DNA from: Nitrospira sp.
GTDB lineage: Bacteria; Nitrospirota; Nitrospiria; Nitrospirales; Nitrospiraceae
Length of the DNA: 64,000 bases
NCBI GenBank assembly: GCA_019636815.1
Contig: JAHBWT010000001.1
Coordinates: 1 to 64,000, forward strand
Reading direction: 5' to 3'
The translations under genes were made by a program, and so were the position numbers. Numbering within the stretch: position 1 is the first letter of the stretch; each line of letters opens with the position of its first letter. The notes beneath the pieces were generated by a model. The model ran no database searches, was not told where the DNA came from, and saw only the letters and a program-made list of their open reading frames with translations. Positions 57,031 through 59,571 of this stretch are shown in pieces.

Positions 57031-58752
57031 TTACACATCTGTGACGGGAACTGTATACCGGTCTTCGATCGCTGAGCGTACCAGTTGTCGGCTGCGATTG
57101 GCGTCGATAAATGGCTGTTGTTCGATCTGTCGGACTCTGTCGGCCAATGAAGGATCCTTGATCCCTTCTGACATCCATGTGCTGTAATCACCCCGTTGAA
57201 GGTGATACAACCAGGTTTGGTCATCAAGGCCTTCTGCCAATTCTATGAATTGGAAGAGGTTGTGAGCCCGGAGGTTCAATCGATCGCCTGGACCGCGGAA
57301 AAAGAAGCTCCGGTCCGCGGGCAACTCCCCTTCAGCGTACTTCCGACGGTGGCGCCGGCGGTCCGCCTCACAAGGCGCAATACGCAATCGATAGGGTGGC
57401 TCGCTGGATTTGCGATCCCAAAAGATTCCATCACCGGGATCCAAGGCCGAAAAATCTCCAACAGGTTCAGGGAGATTAAGGACTTGACAAAACCGCCCGA
57501 TCGCATCGGCTGGATCCTCTCCCAAGCACACCGCCACGTCCACGGTTTGAAGCACCGGTTTTGCAACATGATCGGGATGAACGGTGACATACACCATGCC
57601 AGTCAAGTCTTGTGCCATAACGGCCTGTACTGGTTGCCATTCCCGCGGCAGTAAATGATGTGCTTCGTCGACGAGAATCCAATGAGGGCGACCGAGTTTG
57701 GCTCGACGCTCCTGAAGGGCGGGCAAGAGAGCCAGAAAAAAAGCCGGTCGATCTTGCAATGGTAAGCCCACAAGGTTGACGATCACATTCGTGTCCGGAC
57801 TTTCCAACGCGGTGAGAATCTCCGTCACGGCCGGAGCCCGTTGTGAAGTTCCAAACATGACCGCCCCTCCAATCCCCTCGTAGTCTCCTTCAGGATCGAT
57901 CACGCACATTTGATAACCGTGTTCGGTCACCCGCTCAAAAATGCCTGTCGCCAACGTTGACTTGCCGCTACCCGACGAACCGGTCAGCAATACATTTAAT
58001 CCTTTGGCGGGAATATGGACTTCCGCACCATTTTTTCGCACACCGACAAGAAGCGTGCGACGGCTCGTGTTGAAAGGAGGAACGCTTAAGTCATGGCCGA
58101 CCAACTCGCCGATGAGCTCGGCAACTCCCTGTCCTTCTGCATTGGTGGTAACCCAATCGGCGATTGTCTTGAGCATGGGCACGGAATTAGCCACCGCGAC
58201 CGCGTATTCACACTGATTCAGTAAAGCGTGGTCATTCTCCGCATCACCGATCCCTACAATATTGCGCGGCGACAAGCCTATCTCGCGCAAGGCGACAGCC
58301 AGCCCAGAGGCCTTGTTAATGCCGGCTGGAACGACCATGACGGACTCGCGATTGAAGATCACCTGCAATTCAAGTCCTAGATCACGAATGACCTCGAGCA
58401 GCGTCAGCTCATGCGGCCGAATCGTGCCCACGATAGACTCTCCGACCGAAAGCGACGGGATCTGTCGACGGCGAAGCTCCTCGATGAATGCTGGAGGTAT
58501 TGGAGGTGCCAAGACCGTATGTTCTCGCGTGCCTGGACGGTAAAGTACGGCTCCATTGTCCGCGACGACTCGCTCACATAGTCCGATTTCTGGAAAGACC
58601 GCCACAATATCAGACAGCAAGCGGCCGGTGACCAGAATGATTTTGCGCCCGGATTGAATGAGGTTCTCAAGCGCGGTGACCGTCTCTCGCTGAACCCGGC
58701 CATTGACGGCCAAGGTGTTATCGTAATCCGTTGCGATGGCTACATATCTCAT
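57031..58752 (-). CDS. HAD-IIB phosphatase fused to HerA/DUF87-type ATPase
   Basis: 573 residues in two parts. Residues 1-220 are a HAD hydrolase of the Cof/SPP type: motif I TDYDNTLA (Asp9, Asp11), a cap between, motif III lysine region INKASGLAVAL, and motif IV GIGDAENDHALL. Residues about 230-573 form a P-loop ATPase: Walker A GSSGSGKST (about 258-266), VIDPEGDYEG, Walker B WILVDEAHHLLP (about 358-369), resembling HerA/DUF87 motor domains. The combination of a sugar-phosphatase-like domain and a nucleic-acid or translocase-like ATPase is unusual. No ribosome site is visible before the ATG. Function unknown; no partner nuclease (NurA) is near. Confidence 0.85.
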   Translation of the reverse strand: MRYVAIATDYDNTLAVNGRVQRETVTALENLIQSGRKIILVTGRLLSDIVAVFPEIGLCERVVADNGAVLYRPGTREHTVLAPPIPPAFIEELRRRQIPSLSVGESIVGTIRPHELTLLEVIRDLGLELQVIFNRESVMVVPAGINKASGLAVALREIGLSPRNIVGIGDAENDHALLNQCEYAVAVANSVPMLKTIADWVTTNAEGQGVAELIGELVGHDLSVPPFNTSRRTLLVGVRKNGAEVHIPAKGLNVLLTGSSGSGKSTLATGIFERVTEHGYQMCVIDPEGDYEGIGGAVMFGTSQRAPAVTEILTALESPDTNVIVNLVGLPLQDRPAFFLALLPALQERRAKLGRPHWILVDEAHHLLPREWQPVQAVMAQDLTGMVYVTVHPDHVAKPVLQTVDVAVCLGEDPADAIGRFCQVLNLPEPVGDFSALDPGDGIFWDRKSSEPPYRLRIAPCEADRRRHRRKYAEGELPADRSFFFRGPGDRLNLRAHNLFQFIELAEGLDDQTWLYHLQRGDYSTWMSEGIKDPSLADRVRQIEQQPFIDANRSRQLVRSAIEDRYTVPVTDV

Positions 58753-58830: not shown

Positions 58831-59493
58831 TTACCGTTTGCTCTTTGTGTCAGCACCTTCATAGCCTGGAGCCGGGCCGGGCGGGGGCCCCGACGATCCA
58901 AAACCTCCCACCGAACTAAATGGAAACCCTGAGGCGCCTGGACCTCCACCTTGCGCCTTCGGTTGATCGCGAACTTTATTGATTTCATCCATGTAGTGGG
59001 AGATGTCCGGTGACATATCCTTGGAATAGATAGAATCCGTTGTTGGATACAAATCGTTCTTTGAGGCATTCAACGTCAAATGGCCCCCTTCCTGCTTGAA
59101 CTGGCTCCATTGGAGGGGCAACTGAAATTTTGTCTCTTCCAATTCAAGGACCGCATACTCGATCTTCCCGGTTTTGGTATCCTTCAGCAACTTCTCGATG
59201 GTGCCGAGTATTTCTCCTTTCTTATTTTTGACGGTTTGATCCAGTGTTGCTCCTTTTTCGTCGACCAACCCCCCGAGACGCACAGGCACGACGTCATATT
59301 CTCCGACGATCCCTTCCCGACCGCCGGTCATATCGGTCGATTGTTTCTCATGGGACTTTTTCGGCTGATTCATATGCTGGTCGGACATTGCGTCACCGGC
59401 TCTCTCACTAAGAGTCCCCTCGGCGAAGACGTGAACCGGTGTCAACACTATCGTGGCAATGAGTGTCAGACGGCACAATCTTTCCTGCTTCAT
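58831..59493 (-). CDS. Periplasmic PRC-barrel-like protein with PGYEG...SKR tail
   Basis: 220 residues with a signal peptide (MKQERLCRLTLIATIVLTPV, cleavage near VFAEG). The PRC-barrel-like core reads VPVRLGGLVDEKGATLDQTV, KKGEILGTIEKLLKDTKTGK and IEYAVLELEETKFQLPLQWS. The C-terminal 40 residues are Gly/Pro/Ser-rich and end APGYEGADTKSKR, nearly the tail of the protein at 2327-2686. GGAGGTCC fixes the ATG at 59493; an upstream in-frame start at 59526 is unlikely. Second of three PRC-barrel proteins in the window. Confidence 0.8.
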   Translation of the reverse strand: MKQERLCRLTLIATIVLTPVHVFAEGTLSERAGDAMSDQHMNQPKKSHEKQSTDMTGGREGIVGEYDVVPVRLGGLVDEKGATLDQTVKNKKGEILGTIEKLLKDTKTGKIEYAVLELEETKFQLPLQWSQFKQEGGHLTLNASKNDLYPTTDSIYSKDMSPDISHYMDEINKVRDQPKAQGGGPGASGFPFSSVGGFGSSGPPPGPAPGYEGADTKSKR

Positions 59494-59571
59494 GATGGAC
59501 CTCCAGTCTGCCTGTATGTCGTCCATGGCTTATATGGACTTCTAAAATAGTTCACTGTCCCGTTATGACCT

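Follow-up and report, generated by a model that had tools for sequence, protein, structure and literature searches.

The open reading frame at positions 57031-58752 on the minus strand of the window, i.e., of the whole 64,000-nucleotide stretch of Nitrospira sp. DNA analysed here, encodes a 573 aa protein in a single uninterrupted frame, the strand and coordinates being exact. This protein joins a HAD-IIB phosphatase, a HerA-type RecA core ATPase, and a C-terminal domain of the OrfY/DUF5752 type; all three parts are known, and their combination is common in genomes yet uncharacterised. The reading that we tentatively favor, at somewhat short of even confidence, is that of a stress-linked sugar-phosphate phosphatase in which the HerA-like core, driven by ATP, and the OrfY-type domain would control activity or assembly, rather than a protein serving mainly as a DNA pump. 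The initial annotation of a HAD phosphatase fused to a HerA/DUF87-like ATPase is borne out by the open frame and by both Pfam and fold comparisons. Its suggestion of a self-contained two-part enzyme, however, omits the third conserved domain, which points to trehalose and stress metabolism.

A predicted structure of the 573 aa protein was generated with AlphaFold2 on the basis of an alignment, with a mean pLDDT of 90.2. The phosphatase domain (residues 1-224; positions 58081-58752, minus strand) matches Pfam Hydrolase_3 (3e-28), scores 86 bits against the NCBIfam HAD-IIB model TIGR01484 (cut-off 41.8), and superposes on the solved structure of PH1421 (PDB entry 1wr8) with a Z score of 27.8 over 221 aligned residues at 2.4 A. 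HAD-IIB motifs I-IV (DxD, T/S, K, and GDxxND) are complete, including motif I, DYDNT (residues 9-13; 58714-58728, minus strand; D9, D11, and T13 invariant), and motif IV, GDAENDH (residues 169-175; 58228-58248, minus strand; invariant, n = 48 sequences). The fold, the HAD-IIB profile, and the catalytic motifs are thus shared with HAD-IIB phosphatases such as PH1421, YbiV (1rlm), and the sucrose-phosphatase and MpgP types, whereas the fusion adds an ATPase and a third domain and falls under the cut-off of every substrate-specific (equivalog) NCBIfam model among the matches listed. The best matches are to sugar-phosphate-type HAD-IIB proteins, namely of the SPP subfamily and the archaeal phosphoglycolate phosphatase type, the model for the latter being matched at 98.6, below its cut-off of 122.75. 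The canonical OtsB models TIGR00685 and PF02358 are absent among the best 25 matches listed for the fusion, while an OtsB control scored 162.6 bits. PNKP-type fusions join a HAD phosphatase to a P-loop kinase. The window's protein likewise joins a phosphatase to a P-loop enzyme, but its phosphatase is of the HAD-IIB and not the PNK3P type, and its ATPase is a HerA-type core and not a kinase.

The ATPase core (residues 231-466; 57355-58062, minus strand) exceeds the cut-off of Pfam DUF87 (6.9e-6; 26.7 bits against 23.2). Its predicted structure matches the HerA of a HerA-NurA complex (9x1m; Z 21.1, 224 aligned residues, 2.8 A), SsoHerA (4d2i; Z 21.1, 223 aligned residues, 3.0 A), and VirB4 (4ag5; Z 19.8), so that a RecA core of about 223 residues with Walker A and B motifs is common to all of these at Z scores of roughly 20-21. 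Walker A reads GSSGSGKS (residues 258-265; 57958-57981, minus strand) and Walker B reads WILVDEAHH (residues 358-366; 57655-57681, minus strand). HerA-type motors are known to move DNA. In contrast to HerA, the fusion lacks the N-terminal HAS barrel, in the place of which the HAD domain stands, and since SsoHerA spends about 350 residues on the same 223 aligned positions, the core of the fusion is also the smaller one. No NurA or nuclease partner gene is conserved beside the fusion loci, per neighbour clustering and a Pfam tally based on crude gene calls. An APS-kinase-like P-loop was considered and rejected because its weak hits come from the Walker A region and the fold is that of HerA; matches of the ATPase profile to ABCB1 were discounted as covering only the P-loop.

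The C-terminal domain (residues 472-573; 57034-57339, minus strand) is one OrfY/DUF5752-type helical domain. Searched with the window's protein alone, Pfam DUF5752 gives only a hint, at 14.1 bits and an E-value of 0.029, below the cut-off of 23; members of a sister subfamily, described below, exceed that cut-off with up to 29.8 bits. A profile-profile comparison with hhalign aligned the domain to the second half of DUF5752 at 95.7% and an E-value of 1e-8 over 87 columns, and the domain's model (pLDDT 89.9) matches OrfY of Thermoproteus tenax (4cso) with a Z score of 10.9 over 94 residues, the next best match reaching 4.6. OrfY is also the top sequence match of the domain profile in hmmsearch (5.5e-4) and itself belongs to DUF5752 by profile (6e-41). 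The two differ in that the fusion holds a single copy of about 100 residues joined to two enzymes, whereas OrfY stands alone and, like DUF5752, contains two halves. OrfY carries the label of a transcription factor in the PDB, and our literature search on DUF5752 and OrfY returned no paper.

A survey of about 30 Nitrospirota loci (L091 and L114-L142) found, by reading, most stand-alone DUF5752 genes adjoining genes for trehalose synthesis, i.e., TreS, TreT, TreY, or OtsB. In representatives, these neighbours were confirmed for TreS (TIGR02456, above cut-off), TreT (PF21269), and OtsB (TIGR00685, above cut-off), while for TreY the models hit a partial gene. A single DUF5752 gene is present in the genome from which the window comes, and the gene after it reads as TreS-like. 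We also observed DUF5752 fused to an MscS-like mechanosensitive channel, confirmed at one locus (L126) and seen by reading at three others (L129, L132, and L137). A trehalose operon of T. tenax (msc-gt-tpsp) combines a mechanosensitive channel, a GT4 glycosyltransferase, and TPSP, although OrfY is not named there (PMC3634074).

Scanning a single genome for each species recovered at least 80 loci with the fusion, nearly all full length and at 43-77% identity, from about nine phyla as given by the record titles: Nitrospirota, Planctomycetota, Cyanobacteriota, Pseudomonadota, Acidobacteriota, Chloroflexota, 'Deltaproteobacteria', Ignavibacteria, and Myxococcota. The closest relatives among the loci found belong to Nitrospira MAGs, and the source genome (4.01 Mb) has a single copy. 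The distribution is patchy, as only 29 of 246 Nitrospirota genomes have a member. Plasmids of Sinorhizobium, Aminobacter, Paraburkholderia, and Nonomuraea also carry members, which, where annotated, are named merely as HAD-IIB or HAD hydrolase family proteins. With no full-length copy in phage records and none in an IMG/VR scan, a phage origin was rejected. The possibility that the fusion is common and already characterised, raised in the initial annotation, thus held as to its frequency, while our literature search found no published description of it. Two atypical copies were observed: a Nostoc plasmid (L089:8001-8666) encodes the HAD half only, with 221 aa at 54% identity that stop at the domain border, and one genome (L096, G149:C1:1078034-1079732) encodes the two halves in different frames that overlap, the HAD part containing a stop; this split copy is probably decayed or frameshifted.

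Across 48 diverse aligned members, D9, D11, K147, D170, and D174 of the phosphatase and G258, G263, K264, and E363 of the ATPase are invariant; T42 is T or S, S265 is S or T, and D362 is D in 47. Hydrolase_3 is matched in all 48 and DUF87 in 47. The earlier observation that both halves keep their catalytic motifs therefore extends to the relatives, in which Walker B was not lost. Against the closest relative, which is 85% identical, Ka/Ks of the window's gene is about 0.13 for the HAD domain, 0.15 for the ATPase, and 0.19 for the C-terminal domain; purifying selection acts on each of the three. The C-terminal domain is also conserved nearly as well as the phosphatase (mean identity 0.55 and 0.59, respectively). 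Across members, the correlation between the domains in their distances is weak (Spearman 0.27-0.41), and strict co-evolution is therefore not demonstrated.

The initial annotation had noted no adjacent partner genes, and the wider comparison agrees. Neighbour clustering yielded mainly overlapping antisense frames and lineage-specific genes, and no family occurred in more than three of 118 neighbouring ORFs in the Pfam tally, both based on crude gene calls; as no neighbour is common across lineages, the idea of a conserved operon partner was rejected. In 4 of about 50 lineages, by raw count, the fusion has trehalose genes at a distance of no more than about 6 kb: TreT in Nitrospira BO4 (L004), OtsA/OtsB in a member of Rhodocyclaceae (L057), a TreS-like gene in a member of Chloroflexi (L071), and TPS with a debranching enzyme and GT4 in Aminobacter. 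Other neighbours on annotated plasmids are the stress genes Dps, hemerythrin, CBS, USP, and Mn catalase. In one Nitrospiraceae clade, Ku is encoded within several kb of the fusion, sometimes together with LigD (L109, L111, L149, L152-L155, and L007). All of these neighbours, the trehalose, stress, and Ku genes alike, are suggestive, not proof. Just upstream of the fusion in the window, a gene on the same strand (58831-59526, minus strand) that is found again next to the fusion in several Nitrospira loci resembles a PRC-barrel by eye and matches nothing in Pfam at 1e-5.

About 13 Nitrospiraceae loci carry a full-length relative at roughly 30% identity, which we treat as a sister subfamily; the motifs are kept in the eight members aligned. 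In three genomes of three genera (L097, L098, and L099, from G121, G085, and G088, respectively), the sister gene is flanked by hypF and hypC within a [NiFe]-hydrogenase operon. At L097, HypF, HypC, HypD, and HypE score above cut-off and HypA is weak, and no HypB above its family cut-off was found in any of the three genomes. The hydrogenase link is not general, since other sister loci have different neighbours, reading as CBS, phosphoribosyltransferase, or AMP-ligase-like genes.

Counted in favor of the stress-linked phosphatase are the matches of the HAD half, the kinship of the third domain with DUF5752/OrfY, the trehalose and stress neighbours, and the low Ka/Ks values. The HAD half would be a sugar-phosphate phosphatase, with trehalose-6-phosphate or a related glycosyl phosphate as the first candidate substrate; the HerA-like core may form a ring or another oligomer and gate or organise the phosphatase at the expense of ATP; and the OrfY-type domain may sense a ligand or dock on enzymes of trehalose or other solute synthesis. 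DNA pumping would not be the main job of the fusion. For the earlier proposal that the HAD half processes something which the motor binds or makes, we found no support. Counted against the favored reading are a trehalose link drawn from relatives of the third domain and from a minority of the loci, the distance of the HAD half from canonical OtsB (TIGR00685 not being among the matches listed), the resemblance of the RecA core to DNA motors above all, the Ku/LigD neighbours in one Nitrospiraceae clade and the hydrogenase genes at some sister loci, and OrfY's transcription-factor label.

Several of these points speak for other explanations. With a RecA core closest to HerA and VirB4, the protein could be a DNA translocase or end-processing enzyme of stress-related DNA repair, the core moving on DNA and the HAD domain removing a terminal phosphate in a PNKP-like manner, and some of the Ku-bearing loci also have LigD, PLD, and an endonuclease/exonuclease/phosphatase gene. 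Most of these loci, however, come from one clade, to which the Ku link is essentially confined, and the missing barrel, the smaller core, the type IIB phosphatase with no PNK3P among the Pfam matches listed, and the trehalose-linked third domain all make this unlikely, although it ranks first among the rivals. Lower in probability is a mere joining of two independent enzymes with no functional coupling: the HAD-only copy in Nostoc, the split copy with its internal stop, and the weakly correlated domain distances speak for it, but members from about nine phyla, and both of two subfamilies some 30% identical to each other, share the same arrangement of the three domains.

Less probable again is that the protein acts as a chaperone or assembly ATPase without a fixed pathway, with a sister form that would replace HypB in [NiFe]-hydrogenase maturation. 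An ATPase-type HypB known in T. kodakarensis provides a precedent (PMC7055735), and the sister gene's position between hypF and hypC in genomes with no HypB over the cut-off fits; nevertheless, hyp operons hold only 3 of the approximately 13 sister loci, and members of the subfamily to which the window's gene belongs were not seen in them. The least probable of the four is an anti-phage system in which the ATPase senses phage and the HAD half depletes a nucleotide. HerA defence complexes (8xav and 8xau) are among the fold matches, and PADLOC reports a match to mad8 (7e-11), but the latter covers only 58 residues around the P-loop, phage records and the IMG/VR scan yielded no full-length copy as noted above, and the annotated neighbours belong to stress metabolism and not to defence. 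As the PADLOC matches concern the P-loop only, they were not taken to mark a defence system.

If the stress-linked phosphatase reading is true, the fusion would be an example of a HerA-type engine put to use outside DNA work, joined there with a metabolic phosphatase and a domain known from trehalose operons. The broader claim, that the family forms a new class of ATP-driven metabolic phosphatases in which a RecA core of the DNA-motor kind controls an enzyme that dephosphorylates small molecules in stress and osmolyte metabolism, while the sister subfamily acts in [NiFe]-hydrogenase maturation where HypB is absent, is one that we regard as doubtful, about half as credible to us as the favored reading itself. 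The finding also offers a clue to what DUF5752/OrfY does, as well as to the role of proteins that databases name only as 'HAD-IIB family hydrolase'.
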